In this document: positions 43,344 to 54,358 of the stretch, piece by piece | Position numbering within the stretch: the first letter of the stretch is position 1 | Layout of the letters: each line of letters opens with the position of its first letter | Made by a program: the position numbers and the translations under genes | Origin: Paludibacteraceae bacterium | Lineage (GTDB): Bacteria > Bacteroidota > Bacteroidia > Bacteroidales > Paludibacteraceae | Direction: 5' to 3' | Assembly: GCA_017559505.1 (NCBI GenBank) | Contig: JAFYSF010000056.1 | Location: 1-64,000 of the forward strand | DNA: 64,000 bases | Notes under the pieces: model-generated | What the model was told of the DNA's origin: nothing | What the model saw: only the letters and a program-made list of their open reading frames with translations | Database searches by the model: none

Positions 43344-45053
43344 TTAATCGATATAATCTCTCATACCAAAATCATGACCTTTTCTACGAGTTACCATTTC
43401 AGAAGGTAATGTTTTTTGGACATCAGGTTCGAATGCATAATTAAATACGTCTGCTATAGTTTTTATAACATTCAAAAATGTATTATTAAAAATATAAACA
43501 AAGCACTCTATTCTTAAAGTAAAAACATTTTCGGCTTTAATAAAATGAGCTATATTTGCAGAACTAACAGCATACCATTCATTTTTATCAGCGTGCAAAT
43601 CAAACTTTTCTGAAATTTCAGCCTCCATTTTATTATACATTTTATCAAAAGCTTCGTAATTAACAATACGAGCTTTCGGATCATCGTATGAAGCATCGTG
43701 CTTTTTAGAGTTATAACAAAAATGGAATTGCGTTGGTCTATTTCTCAAGCCAGTTGCGCCCAAAATTGGTATAACCCAACTATCTGGTTTTGAAGACAAA
43801 CGATTTATATCCTCAATAAATAATTTCAAATTAGGACAATCATCGACATTTGTAATATTATAATAAGTAGTTGGATCGTCAGGATTGGTTTCAATATCCT
43901 TTGCAACATAATTAAAACCACCCAATTTAGCAATATGATAAGCTAACCAACTTGACATTGGTTCAGAATATCCAGATGTACTAACTATAGTCACTTTAGA
44001 ACCTCTATCTATACATGCCCCATACGGAGTATTAGAGAAATAATTGATAACAACCAAATTGTCTTTTGGATTATCTTGAGGGTTAGATGCCTCTGCCAAA
44101 TTATACAGATGGAGACAGTCTGAAGCTTCTACTGCTTTAATTATATCATCTTCAGCAATAAATTTACGAGTTGTGATAGTTTTAATCTGCTTATAACGAG
44201 GTACACAAAACAAATTTGTATGCTGTTGATCTTTTTCAAATTTAAATAAGCGCACAATGCGTTCTATATTATCAGAAATCTCTTTTTCTTTAGCGTCTTC
44301 TTCCATTACTTCAGTAAATGCTGAACCGATGAGACCGGCAGGTACGGCGAAGATAGCGATACCGAGGATACCGATGATAGTGGCGATTAAACGCCCAACG
44401 AGAGTAATAGGAGGAGTGTCGGCAAAATTACCTGGATCGCCAATATACTGAGCAAAAGCCCAAACAACTGACGTCCAACCATTAGCATAAACCTCTGGTT
44501 GCGCTTCGTGTTCGACAAAAAACAATATGAACGATAGAATAAGAGTCACGATAGAGAGGAACTGAAGGGAAACAATCATCTCGCGTTTTTTGGAAGATAT
44601 GGCACGCGACAAAATGCTAAATGCCTTCATATAACGGAAAACACGCAAAAGGCGAGCAATACGCAATGCCTTGAGAGCTACGTAAGGCACAGGCATAAAG
44701 AAGTGGAGATAGAATGGATAGGTAGAGAGAATGTCTATCAATCCATAGAATGTACAACAATATTTGATTCTACCCCAAAAACCTTTGTATTTATCATCGA
44801 TTTGATCAGCACACCAAATACGCAAAGTGACCTCGATAGTAAAAAATAAGGTTGTAAGTATATCAACAAAATGCAGTATTTTGCCATATTGTTCTACAAC
44901 ACTATCATACGTTGAGAGAAATACCTCAATAGTTGATAATACAATAAATCCAAGAATGACATAGTCTAAATAGTTATGCCACTGTTTTGTGCGTAGATTA
45001 TCATCAAATACACGAGCGAGTTCTTGTTTAAGATTTTTAATTTTTGAGTTCAT
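43344..45053 (-). CDS. Voltage-gated-type ion channel with a large C-terminal domain
   Basis: 569 aa. Six-helix Ion_trans unit with an arginine-rich S4 (ALRIARLLRVFRYMK near 130-144). The pore loop reads VVWAFAQYIGDPGNF near 200 instead of a TVGYGD potassium filter, and the S6 helix is IATIIGILGIAIFAVPAGLIGSAF. The C-terminal 320 residues are soluble and include VTIVSTSGYSEPMSSWLAYHIAKLGG, not a family I recognise; a ligand-binding or enzyme domain is possible. Inner membrane. Confidence 0.78.
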   Translation of the reverse strand: MNSKIKNLKQELARVFDDNLRTKQWHNYLDYVILGFIVLSTIEVFLSTYDSVVEQYGKILHFVDILTTLFFTIEVTLRIWCADQIDDKYKGFWGRIKYCCTFYGLIDILSTYPFYLHFFMPVPYVALKALRIARLLRVFRYMKAFSILSRAISSKKREMIVSLQFLSIVTLILSFILFFVEHEAQPEVYANGWTSVVWAFAQYIGDPGNFADTPPITLVGRLIATIIGILGIAIFAVPAGLIGSAFTEVMEEDAKEKEISDNIERIVRLFKFEKDQQHTNLFCVPRYKQIKTITTRKFIAEDDIIKAVEASDCLHLYNLAEASNPQDNPKDNLVVINYFSNTPYGACIDRGSKVTIVSTSGYSEPMSSWLAYHIAKLGGFNYVAKDIETNPDDPTTYYNITNVDDCPNLKLFIEDINRLSSKPDSWVIPILGATGLRNRPTQFHFCYNSKKHDASYDDPKARIVNYEAFDKMYNKMEAEISEKFDLHADKNEWYAVSSANIAHFIKAENVFTLRIECFVYIFNNTFLNVIKTIADVFNYAFEPDVQKTLPSEMVTRRKGHDFGMRDYID

Positions 45054-46753: not shown

Positions 46754-48007
46754 ATGGAAATTAAACGAGATTTATACCTAACAAAATTAATTCAATCTAA
46801 AGAAAATGGATTAATCAAAGTCGTAACAGGATTACGCCGTTCTGGTAAATCGTATTTACTAAAAACTCTTTTCAAAACTCATTTATTAGAAACTGGAGTT
46901 GAGGCAGACCATATATTAATTATTGATTTAGAGAACATACGTAACAAAGCTTTTTTAGATATTAATTATTTCATAAAATGGTTAGATGAACATATACAAG
47001 ACAACAAAACACATTATTTGATAATTGATGAAATACAAAATATACCTAACTTTACAGAACTACTTGGAGGATTAGTAACGACAGAACACCTAGACGTATA
47101 TGTCACAGGGAGTAACTCTCATTTACTAAGTTCAGATGTTGCTACAGAATTTCGCGGTCGAGGAGAAGAAATTCATCTATATCCTTTATCTTTTGCAGAA
47201 TTTTGTTCTGTATATTCTGGAAACGAAGTTGATGCCTTACAAGAATATATTACTTATGGTGGTCTTCCATACGTACACACACTGCCAAATGATGAAAAAA
47301 AATCCAACTATTTAGAACAAATTTATCGTTCTGTATATTTAAGAGATATTTTTGAAAGATATACTATTGAAAATCCTAAAGAATTTCAAGAATTATTACG
47401 AATTTTATCATCATGTATAGGTACGCCTCAAAATGCCAATAAAATTGCTAATACATTCAAAACAATAAAAAAGCTACAAGCAATTACACCAAAAACGATT
47501 GACAATTATATAAATCACATAGAAAATGCATTTCTTTTAGAGGAGGCACAACGCTATGACATCAAAGGTCGTCAATATATTGGTAATTTATCTAAATACT
47601 ATTTCCAAGATTTAGGTTTAAGAAATGTGATTCTACATTTTCGACAAATAGAAGAAACACACTTAATGGAGAATCTACTTTATAATCAATTACGTATGCT
47701 TGGATATCAAGTAGATGTTGGTAATATTCCTATTCGTACAACTATCAATGGAGAACAAAAACGTTCTAATTTAGAAATTGATTTTATAGTTAATCGAGGT
47801 TCACAGCGCTATTATATACAATCGGCATGGCGTCTGCCCGACGCAGAAAAACGAGAGCAAGAAATTCGTCCTTTCATCAATGTAGCAGATTCATTTCCAA
47901 AGATTGTAATTGTTGGGGAACAAATGAAATTGCGTCGTGACGAAAATGGTATAATCTACATTAGCATCTATCAATTTTTGAAAGAACCACAAATAGTATT
48001 AAACTAA
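46754..48007 (+). CDS. AAA ATPase with DUF4143 (ATPase 2)
   Basis: 417 aa. Walker A GLRRSGKSYLLK near 25-36, Walker B YLIIDEIQN near 90-98, VTGSNSHLLS near 120-129, then the family segments YPLSFAEF, YGGLPYV and RDIFERYTIENPKEFQ, and C-terminal nuclease-like LEIDFIVNRGSQRYYIQ (Asp-x-Asn..Gln instead of a full D-ExK). Low GC. Function not established. Both flanks (palindrome array before, hairpin after) are homologous to those of ATPase 3, though the proteins are of different subfamilies. Confidence 0.88.
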   Translation: MEIKRDLYLTKLIQSKENGLIKVVTGLRRSGKSYLLKTLFKTHLLETGVEADHILIIDLENIRNKAFLDINYFIKWLDEHIQDNKTHYLIIDEIQNIPNFTELLGGLVTTEHLDVYVTGSNSHLLSSDVATEFRGRGEEIHLYPLSFAEFCSVYSGNEVDALQEYITYGGLPYVHTLPNDEKKSNYLEQIYRSVYLRDIFERYTIENPKEFQELLRILSSCIGTPQNANKIANTFKTIKKLQAITPKTIDNYINHIENAFLLEEAQRYDIKGRQYIGNLSKYYFQDLGLRNVILHFRQIEETHLMENLLYNQLRMLGYQVDVGNIPIRTTINGEQKRSNLEIDFIVNRGSQRYYIQSAWRLPDAEKREQEIRPFINVADSFPKIVIVGEQMKLRRDENGIIYISIYQFLKEPQIVLN

Positions 48008-48043
48008 ACATTATATTATTTCAAAGAACGATTTTATATTTGT

Positions 48044-48080
48044 AGGCATTCAAGGGTTCAATCTTGAATGCCTTATTTTT
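48044..48080. terminator. Hairpin T1 (AGGCATTC type) after ATPase 2
   Basis: AGGCATTCAAG (48044-48054) pairs with CTTGAATGCCT (48063-48073), then TATTTTTT. The 30 bases before it (TTTCAAAGAAC..TTTATATTTGT) recur before hairpin T2. Confidence 0.85.
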
Positions 48081-48104
48081 TCGTTTTGCCTATTTTATTA
48101 TAAA

Positions 48105-48347
48105 TTATTTACATCGCTTCAATGCTTCTTTGGCATCTTCGATATAACGTTTGATGCGTTCGATGTCGCGGTCGTGCGAAGCTGCACGGTCGATTTTATT
48201 TTTACGATAAGTTGCTTTAGACGAAGGAGTAGAAGCACGTTTAATTAAATCGGCATAACGAGCATTGTCACGTTTCTTTTCTTCTTTTTCTTTAGCCAAA
48301 TCGGCACGCAAATCAATAATTTTTTTGCGGTAATACTCTTTACTCAT
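48105..48347 (-). CDS. Small coiled-coil protein, hypothetical
   Basis: 80 aa, highly charged, nearly all helix: MSKEYYRKKIIDLRADLAKE, then ASTPSSKATYRKNKIDRA as a break, and a second helix to KRCK. Two-helix hairpin predicted. No known domain. I recall similar proteins near the other small genes of this cluster in Bacteroides; not verified. Confidence 0.7.
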   Translation of the reverse strand: MSKEYYRKKIIDLRADLAKEKEEKKRDNARYADLIKRASTPSSKATYRKNKIDRAASHDRDIERIKRYIEDAKEALKRCK

Positions 48348-48689: not shown

Positions 48690-50012
48690 ATGAAATTCTA
48701 TAATAGAGAAAATGAATTAGAGCTACTACAAGAGATTGTACAACTATCGCAAAGCGCGTCACAAATGACAGTGCTAACAGGTCGTCGCCGCATTGGAAAA
48801 ACAAAGTTGCTACTACGAGCAACTGAAAAGATGCCATGTGTATATTTTTTTGTATCACGCAAAAGCGAAAGCATATTGTGCAACCAATTTGCTACCGAAG
48901 CATCGCAAGCACTGAATGTACCGATTGGCAATTACAATCGTTTTGCAGACTTATTAGAGCACTTAATGCGCATCTCGACATTGCAACCATTCACGCTTAT
49001 CATCGACGAATTTCAAGAGTTTGTGAATATTGAAAAGTCTATTATCGGTGATATACAACGAGTATGGGACTTAAACAAAGATAAAAGTCGCATAAATTTA
49101 TTGGCAAGTGGTAGTATATACTCGATGATGCACCACATTTTTGAAAACGAAAAAGAGCCACTATTTTCACGAGCAAGCAATATCATACATCTTCAATCAT
49201 TCAGAACTGACACTCTCAAAGAGATTCTTGCCGACCATAATCCTAATTATACTGCCGAAGATTTATTAGCACTATACACATTCACGGGTGGCGTTGCATG
49301 GTATGTTGAACTGCTGATGAATGCACGAGCTGTAACCTTCAAAAAAATGGTTGACCATATTTTCCGTGAAAATTCATTATTCCTCAACGAAGGCAAAAAC
49401 CTACTAATTGAGGAGTTTGGCAAAGATTATAGCATCTATTTTTCGATTTTAGAATGTATTGCACGAGGTATAAATACACGAGGTGATATATCTAATGCGA
49501 TAGGAATTCAAGAAATAGGAGGTCATTTAGCACGATTGGAACGAGATTTCAATATTATTCGTCAAATTCGACCTATATTCAGTAAACCATCCACTAAGAC
49601 GGTAAAATATTATATTGCCGATAACTTTCTAACATGTTGGTTTAGATTTATCTATAAGTATATCAATTATATAGAATCAGGCAATATAGAGTTGCTAAAA
49701 CAGGTATTTATGCGCGATTACCCTACTTTTTCAGGTCAGATGTTAGAGCGTTATTTCCGTCAGCAAGCAATCGAAAGTCATCAATATACCACAATAGGCA
49801 ACTATTGGAATCGCAAAGGCGAAAACGAAATAGATATTATCTTGGTGAATGAAATAGACAAAATATTACAGATTGGAGAAATCAAACGCCAAGCAAAAAA
49901 TATTGATATGGAATTGTTGCGCTCGAAAGCTGACTATTTCTTGTCAGTTCACCCTGAATTGCAATCGTATCAATTAGAATTATGCGCATTATCATTGGAT
50001 GATATTCTCTAA
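48690..50012 (+). CDS. Archaeal-type ATPase with DUF234 (ATPase 3)
   Basis: 440 aa. Opens FYNRENELELLQEI, Walker A GRRRIGKTKLLL near 30-41, Walker B TLIIDEFQEF near 96-105, sensor NLLASGSIYSMM, winged-helix region (GDISNAIGIQEIGGHLARLERDFNIIRQ), then the DUF234 nuclease-like end with NEIDIILV and GEIKR (D-x(n)-ExK-like). This subfamily differs from ATPases 1 and 2. Function unknown; proposed DNA-linked cargo. Confidence 0.88.
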   Translation: MKFYNRENELELLQEIVQLSQSASQMTVLTGRRRIGKTKLLLRATEKMPCVYFFVSRKSESILCNQFATEASQALNVPIGNYNRFADLLEHLMRISTLQPFTLIIDEFQEFVNIEKSIIGDIQRVWDLNKDKSRINLLASGSIYSMMHHIFENEKEPLFSRASNIIHLQSFRTDTLKEILADHNPNYTAEDLLALYTFTGGVAWYVELLMNARAVTFKKMVDHIFRENSLFLNEGKNLLIEEFGKDYSIYFSILECIARGINTRGDISNAIGIQEIGGHLARLERDFNIIRQIRPIFSKPSTKTVKYYIADNFLTCWFRFIYKYINYIESGNIELLKQVFMRDYPTFSGQMLERYFRQQAIESHQYTTIGNYWNRKGENEIDIILVNEIDKILQIGEIKRQAKNIDMELLRSKADYFLSVHPELQSYQLELCALSLDDIL

Positions 50013-50051
50013 TTCTACTCTACAATATTTCAAAGAACACATTTATATTGT

Positions 50052-50092
50052 AGGCATTCGGGCGGTCAAGCCCGAGTGCCTTAATTTTTTTT
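50052..50092. terminator. Hairpin T2 (AGGCATTC type) after ATPase 3
   Basis: AGGCATTCGGGC (50052-50063) pairs with GCCCGAGTGCCT (50070-50081), then TAATTTTTTTT. Shared by the convergent 104-aa gene. Confidence 0.88.
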
Positions 50093-50097
50093 GCTAA

Positions 50098-50412
50098 TTA
50101 TTTACCTGCAGCAACGAGAGTAGCAGAGTTATCAGCCAAAGCAGAGTCATCTGCGTTAGCAACTTGAACACCGATACCATACATTTCAGCAACTTTTTTC
50201 TCGAAGTTACCCACTTGCATGTTACCACCTACTGCGAGTTCGCCACCTTTAGCGTCTTTAGCACGGATAGAAGCCAAAGTAGCTTCATCGTCAGCAAATG
50301 CACCTTTACAAGTTATGCTTTTGTAAACGCGAAGAGTTGAACCAAATGCTTTTTTGAATTCGTTTTTCAAGGTTTTCACTTTCATGTTACCTTTCAATGC
50401 AATTTCTGCCAT
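50098..50412 (-). CDS. Small two-repeat protein (104 aa), beta-grasp-like family
   Basis: 104 aa made of two similar units. Unit A (about 8-50): GNMKVKTLKNEFKKAFGSTL, then AFADDEATL. Unit B (about 63-103): GNMQVGNFEKKVAEMYGIGV, then ALADNSATL. In both units the Met-to-Gly distance is 14 residues and an AD(D/N)-x-x-TL block follows. No known domain is assigned by me; the strand-helix-strand pattern may be a split beta-grasp. Same family as the 121-aa protein at 51866-52231. No signal peptide. Confidence 0.8.
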   Translation of the reverse strand: MAEIALKGNMKVKTLKNEFKKAFGSTLRVYKSITCKGAFADDEATLASIRAKDAKGGELAVGGNMQVGNFEKKVAEMYGIGVQVANADDSALADNSATLVAAGK

Positions 50413-50436
50413 AGTAATAAATTTTTAGTTAGTTAA

Positions 50437-50480
50437 TGCCTACTCTTTTAGGATTTTCGGCTACGTCCTTTTATCCTTTG
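50437..50480 (-). repeat. 44-bp leader element, copy 1
   Basis: On the minus strand ..CCGAAAATCCTAAAAGAGTAGGCA, overlapping the last codons of the nuclease gene and ending 25 bases before the 104-aa gene. A near copy (51786-51829) precedes the 31-aa gene at similar distance. Confidence 0.75.
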
Positions 50481-51638
50481 TAAAAATAAATGTTTCATAT
50501 CTTCATATAAATCGTCACTAATATCTTTTGTATGTGGATATAACGCATTAACGAAATCACGAAAATAGATATCTTCTTTATATTCTTTTTGTTTTACACA
50601 AAAATCATAAACTTGCTTATAATAAATTTTCTTATAAAAACATCCCGATTTGTATACACTCAAATCAATGTCATTATAATTTGGAGTTAACAAATAAAAT
50701 GCAGTATCCCAACCCTTTTCTTTTGCCTCTTTTTTAGCAAATTCATAATACTTTTCGAGTTGTGTACGATCTAATTGGTTCGATTTACGATTAAAAATTA
50801 AACCATTTATATGAGATTTCACCTTATTCTCAACAACAACGATTTTATTTCCTCCTCGAATCAATAAGTCAATATTTCCCTCCTCGCGCGCAACATCAAA
50901 ATCGGTTGAGAAGCTACACCCAAGCTCTTCTTTGGCAAAACGAACTAACAAATCGGGATATCGTTCCATAAAAAAAGCAAACGCATTAGAAAAAGCCAAT
51001 TCATTAGAAGATACACCACAAATATCAAAATATGTAATATCCCTTTTATCGACATCTTTCATTTCGACTTTATCCACCCCATTATTCCATAGACTAATAT
51101 CATTAATCTTCTCTTGCAGTGCAATATAGTCATTAGGTGTGAGTTCGTAATCAATATATTGTTTAAGAGATGCTTTTGCCTGCTTATTTTCGGTCAACAC
51201 CACAGTATCAATCCCATCCTTATCAAACGACACATATAAAGGTTTAATAGGGCGACTAACACGCTCGGCCTTATATGTCAAATAGACATATTGATACTCA
51301 TTTTCTATAAAAAGTTCATTAAGCAAAACACCTGCATATCGTACATCGTTTTCAACAATATACTTAATCTGATCTTCAGCAGTTTGTTTTGGGTGATAAA
51401 TTTCTGTAATTCCCTCTGCCTTCCCAAGCACTTCAAGCATTTTTCGACCAGGCAAAGAGCGAACAAGAAGCACACAACCAACCTTATCTTGTTGCGAAAC
51501 ATGGAACGTTCCTGAATGTTGCAAATAGATATAATGAGAACCATTATCTGATTGATAAAGATTTATTATCTCATGACCCAAATTATCGTTAAGATAATCG
51601 CCATTATACATTCTATTTAAAACGATTTTTTTATTCAT
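50448..51638 (-). CDS. PD-(D/E)XK nuclease-domain protein
   Basis: 396 aa. The C-terminal half is a PDDEXK_4-like nuclease: helix with E213 (SNELAFSNAFAFFMER), D257 in GNIDLLIRG, then E270-N-K272 in VVVENKVKS and QLEKYYEFA near 293-301. The N-terminal 200 residues, beginning IVLNRMYNGDYLNDNLGHEI, form a separate domain I cannot name; it might read nucleic acid or protein. It lies between small-protein genes on the same strand (35 bases before the 104-aa gene, 26 bases after the 31-aa gene), so it is probably part of the same transcript. Confidence 0.8.
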   Translation of the reverse strand: MNKKIVLNRMYNGDYLNDNLGHEIINLYQSDNGSHYIYLQHSGTFHVSQQDKVGCVLLVRSLPGRKMLEVLGKAEGITEIYHPKQTAEDQIKYIVENDVRYAGVLLNELFIENEYQYVYLTYKAERVSRPIKPLYVSFDKDGIDTVVLTENKQAKASLKQYIDYELTPNDYIALQEKINDISLWNNGVDKVEMKDVDKRDITYFDICGVSSNELAFSNAFAFFMERYPDLLVRFAKEELGCSFSTDFDVAREEGNIDLLIRGGNKIVVVENKVKSHINGLIFNRKSNQLDRTQLEKYYEFAKKEAKEKGWDTAFYLLTPNYNDIDLSVYKSGCFYKKIYYKQVYDFCVKQKEYKEDIYFRDFVNALYPHTKDISDDLYEDMKHLFLQRIKGRSRKS

Positions 51639-51664
51639 AATTTAAATTTTAAACAACTATCCTA

Positions 51665-51760
51665 TTAATCGAATAATACGCCATTTTTCAATACAGACAC
51701 TCTATTAACTTCAGCGATATTGATAGTATATTCGCCATAAGATGCGGTTTTCTTTGCCAT
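51665..51760 (-). CDS. Very small protein (31 aa)
   Basis: MAKKTASYGEYTINIAEVNR then VSVLKNGVLFD. Preceded by a leader element shared with the 104-aa gene and located in the same strand and order as the other small genes. Beta-strand-like alternation (YTINIAEV, VSVLKNGVL) suggests a hairpin. Too short for database-style recognition; may be real because of the conserved leader. Confidence 0.55.
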   Translation of the reverse strand: MAKKTASYGEYTINIAEVNRVSVLKNGVLFD

Positions 51761-51785
51761 GATAAATTAGATTTTAAGTATTTTC

Positions 51786-51829
51786 TGCCTACTCTTTTAG
51801 ATTTTCGGTATCTTCCTTTTATTTGTAGG
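51786..51829 (-). repeat. 44-bp leader element, copy 2
   Basis: On the minus strand ..CCGAAAATCTAAAAGAGTAGGCA, 25 bases before the 31-aa start. It follows directly after hairpin T3. Confidence 0.75.
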
Positions 51830-51862
51830 CAAACGGGCGGTCAAACCCGAATGCCTTATTTT
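51827..51862. terminator. Hairpin T3 (AGGCA..TGCCT type)
   Basis: AGGCAAACGGG pairs with CCCGAATGCCT (51827-51856), with a T-run on the + side. Third member of the T1/T2 family; it lies just after the stop of the 121-aa gene. Confidence 0.75.
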
Positions 51863-51865
51863 TTA

Positions 51866-52231
51866 TCAATACTCACCACGCGCGGCTTTGCCGAGTGTAA
51901 TTTCGTTTGGCACAAGGATTTTGCCTGTTTTGTCCTTGATTTGAACTGTTACGCCAAAAGTTTCGTCGAAGAGTTTTTCGGCATCGCCTACTTTTGTGCT
52001 ACCTTTGATTTTGAGGGCATCGGCAGATGCTTTTTTCACTTCTTTAGTCGTTTTTTCGTTCAATTGATTGAGTGTCAAATCGCCATCGGCTATTTGTTTG
52101 CCTTTGTAAAAAACAAGTGACAAATCGAACGCAGCCATGAAATCGGCTGAAATTGTTTTCAATTTTTTGTTTGGAGCAACTGTAAATTCCGCTGAATTAA
52201 AACGGTCTTTAATACTATCAAAAAGTCCCAT
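51866..52231 (-). CDS. Small two-repeat protein (121 aa), beta-grasp-like family
   Basis: 121 aa: an N-terminal amphipathic helix (GLFDSIKDRFNSAEF), then unit A (22-57: KKLKTISADFMAAFDLSLVF, ..IADGDLTL) and unit B (78-114: STKVGDAEKLFDETFGVTV, ..VPNEITL). Spacing of key residues matches both units of the 104-aa protein (14 residues from the first strand to the Gly/Asp turn). Residues 39-54 (LVFYKGKQIADGDLTL) resemble ubiquitin strand beta3-beta4 (LIF-x-GKQL-x-DG-x-TL). The resemblance may be convergent. No di-glycine end. Confidence 0.8.
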   Translation of the reverse strand: MGLFDSIKDRFNSAEFTVAPNKKLKTISADFMAAFDLSLVFYKGKQIADGDLTLNQLNEKTTKEVKKASADALKIKGSTKVGDAEKLFDETFGVTVQIKDKTGKILVPNEITLGKAARGEY

Positions 52232-52258: not shown

Positions 52259-52420
52259 TTATTTTCTTTTTTTAGTTACTGCTTTGAGAATTGCACCTCC
52301 GATTTTACGTTCGAGACCTTGACGTGTGGTTGGGATGCCTACGGCGTGTGCTACTTTGTTTTTTAGACCAGAGATGCCTACGGCACGTTTTAATGAAAAG
52401 CTTAATCCTGGAATTTTCAT
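52259..52420 (-). CDS. Very small basic protein (53 aa)
   Basis: MKIPGLSFSLKRAVGISGLK, then KNKVAHAVGIPTTRQGLERK and a basic tail GGAILKAVTKKRK. Contains an internal echo RAVGISGLK / HAVGIPTTR (A-V-G-I). Strongly positive (about a quarter Lys/Arg). First gene of the leftward small-gene cluster; 27 bases before the 121-aa gene. Too short to assign. Confidence 0.65.
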   Translation of the reverse strand: MKIPGLSFSLKRAVGISGLKNKVAHAVGIPTTRQGLERKIGGAILKAVTKKRK

Positions 52421-52698: not shown

Positions 52699-53985
52699 TC
52701 ACTTCACAATGGTATATTTAGCATTGAAGTATTCGGTCTTTGGGGAAATGGCTATGACTTCGAGCCAAACATAGTTGTGGAATCGCATACGCTCGTTTTC
52801 GAAACCAAGATAGATGGTTTGCTTGCCATTCATTGGAATGCGACCATTGCATGACTGTGTGCCCATTGTGGAATAGTTGATGTTGTATTGCAATGTTGAT
52901 GTTGCTTTGCCATCTTGGAAACTTTTGGCTTGAGACGAACTAGTGAATACGAACATATTGATATAAGCATCTTCTTCGCGCGGTGGTTTGTTATCACCCA
53001 AAAGAGTTTGGATAAGTCCAATGCTATGTTGAGACTCGTAGAGTGGCATACCTAAAACTTTGATTTTACTATATGAATGATTCATATCTTCACTAAACTT
53101 ACCATCGGTGTACATATCTTCTTCGTCGGTAGAGATACGCAAACGATAGAGAATGTCGGTTGTGCCTGCTGGCACCTGAACAGCTACAATACCACGATAT
53201 GAACCTGAGAATGCGGCTTTGATTTGACCACGAAGTGTAAACTTACGTGGTTCTTCGAATATATTAGACATTTTGAGACCTTTTGTTGATATTGCACGAA
53301 AAGCTCCTTTCTCACATTCAACAATCTCGGTGTTGACTGTTGCCAAATTATTCAAACGACTGATGTCTGGGACTTTATATCCAACACTGATATTGGCATA
53401 TTGTGTTGCTCCTGGATTGACTTCTACAAGATAGATAGCAGAATTGCGAATAGCAAGCGAATCGTGCACCTTGGTCTTACTACTATAGGTTTTGAGCAAT
53501 TTACGAGAATCGGCATTATAGATTTTGACTGTAGCTGGCGATTCGGTTTCGATAAGATAGAACATTTTATCTCCTTTCTCAAGATAAACTGGGAATGCCT
53601 CTGTTCCGCCATCCATCAAATAGTCTTCTTTCTTATGACTGACAATACCTAATGTAGCAACCTCAGTCTGCAATCTCTCTTTGAGTTTATTGCGAACAAA
53701 GTCAGTGCGTTTCTTTAGATTGTGACATTTTGCCAAAGCAGTAGAATCAAGCCCAGACATATCGTATTCGTAATGCAACTGTGGCACAAATTCAGACAAC
53801 GAAACAATTTGATCGACCGACATCTCGCCAACATCGTCCAACAAAATTTCGACACGTTGCAACGACGCAAGCATTTTTTCATATTCAGAAGATTGCTCTT
53901 CAGACATATTGCCATATTCGCCACTTTTACCTCCGCCACACGAAACGAACAACAAAACAGTTAAAAACAAAACCAATTTTTTCAT
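52699..53985 (-). CDS. Bacteroidota lipoprotein, hypothetical
   Basis: 428 aa from the ATG at 53985, giving lipoprotein signal MKKLVLFLTVLLFVSCGGG (Cys16). A start 95 codons upstream would run through a terminator hairpin and an RNA gene and is rejected. The mature protein has an N-terminal helical region (SSEYEKMLASLQRVEIL) and beta-rich middle and end (FYLIETESPATVKIYNADSR; TIYLGFENERMRFHNYVWLEVIA). No family recognised. Surface or periplasmic. Confidence 0.75.
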   Translation of the reverse strand: MKKLVLFLTVLLFVSCGGGKSGEYGNMSEEQSSEYEKMLASLQRVEILLDDVGEMSVDQIVSLSEFVPQLHYEYDMSGLDSTALAKCHNLKKRTDFVRNKLKERLQTEVATLGIVSHKKEDYLMDGGTEAFPVYLEKGDKMFYLIETESPATVKIYNADSRKLLKTYSSKTKVHDSLAIRNSAIYLVEVNPGATQYANISVGYKVPDISRLNNLATVNTEIVECEKGAFRAISTKGLKMSNIFEEPRKFTLRGQIKAAFSGSYRGIVAVQVPAGTTDILYRLRISTDEEDMYTDGKFSEDMNHSYSKIKVLGMPLYESQHSIGLIQTLLGDNKPPREEDAYINMFVFTSSSQAKSFQDGKATSTLQYNINYSTMGTQSCNGRIPMNGKQTIYLGFENERMRFHNYVWLEVIAISPKTEYFNAKYTIVK

Positions 53986-54042
53986 ATAATCAAATTTATT
54001 AAGACCAAAATCTATCACACAAATTAGTTCACTATAGGACAT

Positions 54043-54358
54043 AAAAAAACGTGGAATTCGACTGTTGCCGTTCCACGTAATGAGGCCTTCGCATTGCCCT
54101 TGATGTCGGAACAACAACGCGAAGCCCACGCTGATATAAGTTATAATGATTACATTATATGCACCAAACGTGCGCCATAATAGATATGGCACAACATGGA
54201 TACTTACATCCCATAGGACATCTATCGTTGTTAGGTTCATGACATCAATAAGAAAGTTGCGAAGTTTCATTACGTCAGAACAAAACGCTGTATAAACGTC
54301 TTTTCAATATGTCCGTAAACCCACCCTAAAAAAAGACATACGCCCCAGCGTGAGCTTA
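54043..54358 (-). ncRNA. Structured RNA, candidate 6S-like (Bacteroidales-1 type)
   Basis: About 310 nt on the minus strand from a consensus promoter to a terminator. Long-range stems are perfect: ACGTAATGA (54275-54267) with TCATTACGT (54083-54075); CTTCGCA (54264-54258) with TGCGAAG (54093-54087); TTGATGTC (54248-54241) with GACATCAA (54107-54100); AACAACG (54232-54226) with CGTTGTT (54119-54113). Smaller hairpins (ATAATG/CATTAT; GTGCCAT/ATGGC) fill the centre. The rod-like shape, own promoter and terminator fit what I recall of the Bacteroidales-1 RNA, proposed to stand in for 6S RNA. A spurious reading frame crosses it. Confidence 0.7.
54047..54078 (-). terminator. Terminator of the structured RNA
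   Basis: On the minus strand ACGTGGAA (54078-54071) pairs with TTCCACGT (54056-54049), then TTTTTT. Four bases are shared with the outermost long-range stem, so the two folds compete. Confidence 0.82.

Follow-up and report, generated by a model that had tools for sequence, protein, structure and literature searches.

The locus examined here raises the question of what two small, similar proteins might be doing on either side of a nuclease gene, and whether they are built from ubiquitin-like units, as an initial annotation of the sequence had proposed. Both are encoded on the minus strand of a 64,000-nucleotide stretch of Paludibacteraceae DNA (the window), which belongs to a Bacteroidota genome of 2.3 Mb; gut genomes of Paludibacteraceae are among the near relatives of this genome. 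The two open reading frames were found exactly where the annotation had placed them. P104, a 104-aa protein of the U104 type (50098..50412), is predicted to be made up of two beta-alpha-beta-beta units, the first at about 50266-50406 and the second at about 50104-50244, and ends in a conserved AGK. P121, a 121-aa protein of the U121 type (51866..52231), carries a conserved N-terminal amphipathic helix (52193-52231) followed by two units as in P104 (about 52052-52192 and 51878-52018). Both look like real proteins because synonymous changes predominate among the codon differences from the sister genome G003 (19 synonymous and 7 nonsynonymous for P104; 27 and 4 for P121).

Read along the minus strand, the order is a 53-aa gene, P121, a terminator-like hairpin, a DUF805b RNA, a 31-aa ORF, a PDDEXK nuclease gene, a further DUF805b RNA, P104, and a hairpin. 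The 53-aa basic protein of the S55 family (52259..52420) lies just 5' of P121, and the 396-aa PD-(D/E)XK protein that forms the cargo between P121 and P104 (50448..51638) matches PF14281 barely above the cut-off and the PADLOC candidate PDC-S26. The 31-aa ORF (51665..51760), with the sequence MAKKTASYGEYTINIAEVNRVSVLKNGVLFD, resembles by eye the start of the N66 small-protein domain of sister islands (Y-E-Y...NTRQFG, compared with L099) and is possibly a truncated copy of that domain. Also on the minus strand are an 80-aa helical protein of the CC80 family (48105..48347), a lipoprotein-type neighbor of the LIP family (52699..54270), and an ion channel of the Ion_trans family, labeled ION (43344..45053). 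The hairpin 3' of P121 (51826..51866, z -4.5) is a near-copy of the one 3' of P104 (50050..50094, z -6.1), and similar terminator-like stretches follow small genes at 48034-48081, 50042-50089, and 51818-51865 (79-88% identity); because these stretches resemble one another, the units of leader, ORF, and hairpin have a cassette-like look. On the plus strand, the island is adjoined by two ATPases of the AAA/DUF4143 and DUF234 types (46754-48007 and 48690-50012); they match the PADLOC candidates PDC-S01 and PDC-S27, and genes of this kind are frequent in the regions flanking sister islands as well. This copy of the island is reduced, as the window's own genome yielded no good match to the island kinase described below and matched the N-domain of the OmpA-anchored protein only weakly, on contig C15.

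The proposed relationship between the two proteins was strongly supported. P104 retrieves P121 from its own genome (34% identity, E 3e-6), and the internal duplication claimed for both was borne out by a profile comparison of the units: unit 1 and unit 2 profiles align with an HHalign probability of 97.2 (E 3.4e-11, score 48.8), far above chance, as none of 200 column-shuffled profiles scored better than 16.8 and a reversed unit reached 13.1. The finer regularities held to a varying degree. In each of the four units, the G/D turn comes exactly 14 residues after the first strand (M10-G24, M65-G79, K22-D36, and T79-G93), so this part of the claimed constant spacing stands; the distance from the turn to the TL pair, by contrast, varies (21, 19, 17, and 19 residues). 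Likewise, the motif A/P-D/N-x-x-x-TL is exact in three units, and the fourth reads VP-NEI-TL.

By sequence, the proteins constitute an undescribed family in Bacteroidota. No convincing match to either was found in Pfam, NCBIfam, PHROGs, or PADLOC; sequence searches of the PDB gave nothing below E 0.09 and a PDB profile search only chance rows, and literature searches on DUF805 or on such an island turned up nothing relevant. A scan of genome contigs with alignment A2 (alignment A1 being too diverse) placed relatives in 155 genome stretches, of which 80 loci were kept, with hosts in Bacteroidales as well as Capnocytophaga, Flagellimonas, and a Cytophagales genome. An in-frame stop codon is present in the P104 relative from Capnocytophaga (L072:6001-6300). 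A sample of 392 genomes from the phylum contained relatives in only 10, so the distribution is patchy. No relatives of P104 were found in viral contigs, phages, or plasmids, nor any of a distant relative in plasmids. U121, marked by the conserved helix at its N-terminus (alignment A4), and U104, with its terminal AGK, recur together, and the domain is also fused to OmpA-type membrane proteins, LRR, WG repeats, a KAP-associated domain, and lysine-rich tails. At L141-L148, distant relatives of about 122-139 aa from other Bacteroidota families adjoin UspA, CBS, response-regulator, and HSP20-type genes, names such as UspA, CBS, and HSP20 being read here from the sequences rather than from a family search; these relatives may represent an unnamed stress-protein family with the duplicated unit.

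Structure prediction, suggested at the outset together with a fold search, gave the same order of strands and helices in all four units. AlphaFold2 models built with family alignments reached a pLDDT of 86 for P104 and 81 for P121 (pTM 0.71 for both), and DSSP assigned to every unit a strand, a 12-residue helix, a strand, a very short strand, and a short helix, an order that corresponds to beta2-alpha1-beta3-(beta4)-3-10 helix of ubiquitin with a beta4 of only 1-2 residues. Foldseek ranked ISG15 and linear di-ubiquitin first among PDB structures for both models, at best E values of 0.13 and 0.015 for the two and with no match at 0.001; in Foldseek and VIA-align alike, nearly all top rows were ubiquitin-like for both, with Z in VIA-align at most 4.4. 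These VIA alignments span both units or jump between them and thus appear to take a strand of the neighboring unit. Each unit of about 50 residues lacks the beta1/beta5 pair of ubiquitin in the models. Profile similarity to ubiquitin was not found (HHalign probability 0.7 against a single ubiquitin sequence; stray hits only in Pfam), and a viral structure library returned no significant match. The resemblance to a ubiquitin segment noted earlier for residues 39-54 of P121, LVFYKGKQIADGDLTL, agrees with the structural equivalence and is not evidence by itself.

The tandem beta-grasp proposal is plausible and partly supported: the duplication, the ubiquitin-type order, and the ubiquitin-like top matches speak for it, but with no fold match reaching significance, no beta1/beta5 pair within a unit, and no profile similarity found, it stops short of proof. 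A fair statement of the predicted models is that P104 and P121 are a duplicated ubiquitin-like half-fold, for which we infer a beta-grasp relationship. Set against this, and independently of any function, is the view that the likeness arose by convergence and that the proteins have a duplicated alpha/beta fold of their own, such as an interlocked four-strand sheet, sharing only a beta-alpha-beta-beta motif with ubiquitin. Convergence would account for the insignificant Foldseek values, the low Z of alignments that switch between units, and the missing profile match; it accounts less well for two separately predicted proteins whose top rows are almost all ubiquitin-like, although the PDB is rich in ubiquitin. 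We regard convergence as a serious contender that falls somewhat short of an even chance.

A ubiquitin-like fold invites the question of conjugation, and here none of the features looked for was found. A C-terminal GG was found in 0 of 151 relatives; the last residues of P104 form a predicted helix with no free tail, and both models have a short tail or none after the last helix. A Pfam scan of 85 island genes, in which 23 families were matched, included no E1, E2, or JAB family. The window's own genome has no match to Prok-JAB, and its single ThiF match lies on another contig (G000:C10:37676-38416). An internal TAA interrupts the matched frame of this ThiF gene. Conjugation is unlikely for these reasons. 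A link to phage defense gains some support, through the nuclease cargo described below and not through E1/E2/DUB genes, which the initial annotation had not seen in the window either. That the proteins are nonetheless covalently attached modifiers served by remote or novel enzymes would fit the ubiquitin-like top matches and a Gly that is conserved close to the C-terminus of P104-type proteins (AGK); given the GG count, the helical end of P104, and the missing enzyme families, we consider it very improbable.

P104-type genes are often preceded by structured RNA leaders. Two DUF805b RNAs (RF02914) in the window score above the gathering threshold of 35.6 bits, one 5' of P104 (50437..50470, minus strand, 45.2 bits) and one 5' of the 31-aa ORF and the nuclease gene (51786..51818, minus strand, 37.8 bits); the window's genome contains five copies at E 2e-5 or better, four of them above the cut-off. 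Across loci, the RNA sits about 20-30 nt 5' of an ATG. Its second stem is paired in 98.9% of cells, in G-C, G-U, and C-G versions, compared with at most 39% in slid controls, and the P104 leader is probably an H-type pseudoknot. In front of orthologous U104 genes of related loci, DUF805b is replaced by another pseudoknot, AGGAC..GCTCGCA.GTCC..TGCGGGC, which pairs in 97.7% of cells over 18 sequences (slid controls 35-47%); eight cells are changed on both sides, and no shuffle attains its covariation score. This second element had no Rfam match in ten such loci searched. Examples occur at L042:6102-6137(-) and L070:5936-5970 and in L106, L118, and others. A covariance model found it 28 times in 82 locus sequences, 5' of U104 and of some other island genes, and in whole genomes it was strong in only 1 of 101, again 5' of U104. 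Searched by pattern, either leader precedes 31 of 75 U104 genes, 0 of 46 U121 genes, and 8 of 798 other unlabeled genes.

Comparison across 83 Bacteroidota loci, selected for their similarity to U104, trimmed at about 12 kb, and annotated with ORF-based gene calls and labels set by representative proteins, revealed a recurrent island. U104 was present in 70 of the 83 loci, CC80 in 50, U121 in 46, a Ser/Thr kinase in 42, an OmpA-anchored protein in 41, the putative regulator H192 in 39, the ion channel in 34, S55 in 21, a KAP ATPase and the LIP family in 20 each, and TerB in 17; these counts are not independent, because many of the genomes are metagenome assemblies and mutually related. CC80 also occurs in 6 of 101 related genomes, each of which has U104. 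The C-terminal part of one island gene, L046:8965-9936, matches a PARP-type ADP-ribosyltransferase domain in Pfam (E 5e-9).

The variable genes of the island include a putative nuclease cargo. Forty-one such genes of five families were identified in 37 of the 83 loci; all 41 lie on the strand of the family genes, compared with 213 of 342 unlabeled genes, and 37 are no more than three genes away from them. Representatives match PD-T4-3, PvuRts1I-like SRA enzyme/mREase_II, UzuA, and GIY-YIG families, with the exception of NUC224, which has no family match and is called a nuclease by inspection only. Pfam assigned GIY-YIG domains to 7 plus 3 of 85 island genes; in 85 flanking genes, these domains did not rank among the 25 commonest families. 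The slot between P121 and P104, which holds the PDDEXK protein in the window, is occupied in G003 by a PD-T4-3-like gene (GIY253) and another protein (L040/L115); many loci that contain both types carry no gene, or other family genes alone, between U121 and U104. PADLOC defense models matched neighbors and cargo and neither P104 nor P121. We dropped PADLOC counts as evidence for defense, as flanking control genes match at least as many models as island genes do; it is accordingly the nuclease pattern, and not PADLOC, that carries the defense reading.

Taken together, P104 and P121 are probably unconjugated adaptor parts of a new defense or stress system. The adaptor role and its links to nuclease, envelope, and kinase partners are suggested by gene neighborhood and fusions. 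In the mechanism that we favor, the two proteins would act as paired, non-covalent adaptor or scaffold subunits of an island-encoded complex. The N-terminal helix would keep P121 at the membrane, which is a guess from one helix, and P104 would be produced on demand at a dosage set by its pseudoknot leader. Jointly, they would organize a swappable nuclease cargo, represented in the window by the intervening PDDEXK protein, together with envelope and signaling partners such as the OmpA-anchored protein, the Ser/Thr kinase, the KAP ATPase, and the ion channel. Support comes from the duplication and homology, the repeated topology, the recurrent island, the strand and closeness of the nuclease genes, the fusions, and the U104-biased leaders; the lack of a significant fold match, the stress-type neighbors of distant relatives, and the frequently empty or family-only slot count against it. 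We hold this adaptor reading, with a defense or stress complex under RNA-leader control, as our tentative preference, while accepting that it may well prove wrong. A more specific version, in which a new Bacteroidota immune island uses duplicated ubiquitin-like adaptors to bring exchangeable, modification-dependent nucleases to a complex anchored to the envelope and controlled by a kinase, with interchangeable pseudoknot leaders controlling the adaptors, is unlikely to hold in full.

Two other functions were weighed against the adaptor reading. The family could comprise small proteins of a general stress island that sense or buffer envelope or cytoplasmic stress, with nucleases hitch-hiking in a favored insertion region. 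A role in general stress is indicated because distant relatives adjoin universal-stress, CBS, response-regulator, and HSP20-type genes, and it would suit an island in which no single nuclease family is as constant as the ion channel and the kinase; hitch-hiking is harder to reconcile with 41 of 41 nuclease genes on the family-gene strand, most of them adjacent, and we think this account rather doubtful. Alternatively, P104 and P121 might bind the neighboring nuclease and keep it inactive until infection, in the manner of an antitoxin, as could be imagined for small paired proteins that flank swappable nucleases, one of them with a dosage possibly under RNA control. Such an inhibitor would hardly be expected to be more conserved than its cargo or to occur, as the pair does, with no recognized nuclease in reach, and the OmpA, LRR, and WG fusions fit an adaptor better, which makes inhibition improbable.

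The locus joins an unannotated protein family, a candidate regulatory RNA of no assigned purpose, and a recurrent island with anti-phage-type nucleases. The DUF805b RNA gains a concrete, testable target gene in P104, and a second pseudoknot leader without an Rfam match is added to it. If the fold were confirmed, bacteria would be seen to employ ubiquitin-like modules in tandem, next to nucleases, as adaptors without conjugation, with a bearing on the origin of ubiquitin-like immune proteins; if the immune-island reading were also true, it would reveal that bacterial immunity makes non-covalent use of ubiquitin-like folds in tandem.

Comparison with known systems helps to place these proteins. 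Like ISG15 and linear di-ubiquitin, the best Foldseek rows for both models, P104 and P121 present two successive beta-alpha-beta-beta units; they differ in units of about 50 rather than 76 residues, in having neither a beta1/beta5 pair per unit nor a GG tail, and in that sequence similarity to these proteins was not found. Bacterial ubiquitin-like conjugation operons of the Bil/Bub type have an anti-phage connection, and, unlike them, the islands described here have no E1, E2, or DUB matches and no GG tail. The P104 leader exceeds the gathering threshold as in the known DUF805b family; here, however, the RNA is tied to a particular protein family and is substituted in related loci by the pseudoknot without an Rfam match. 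Sister-island cargo matches the PD-T4-3 and PvuRts1I-like families of modification-dependent nucleases, the former corresponding to CMoRE, a restriction enzyme for hydroxymethylated/glucosylated cytosine (5hmC/5ghmC) (PMC12923530); CMoRE is described as a single-component system, whereas the similar genes here belong to a larger recurrent island, whose cargo in the window is a PDDEXK protein. The nearest functional precedent is YukD, a small ubiquitin-like protein reported not to be conjugated, whose gene lies next to those for a Ser/Thr kinase, an ATPase, and a membrane protein (PMC1779556). No ESX gene stood out among the tabulated island genes, and YukD differs from P104 and P121 in having a single unit and in residing in ESAT-6 (ESX) export loci.
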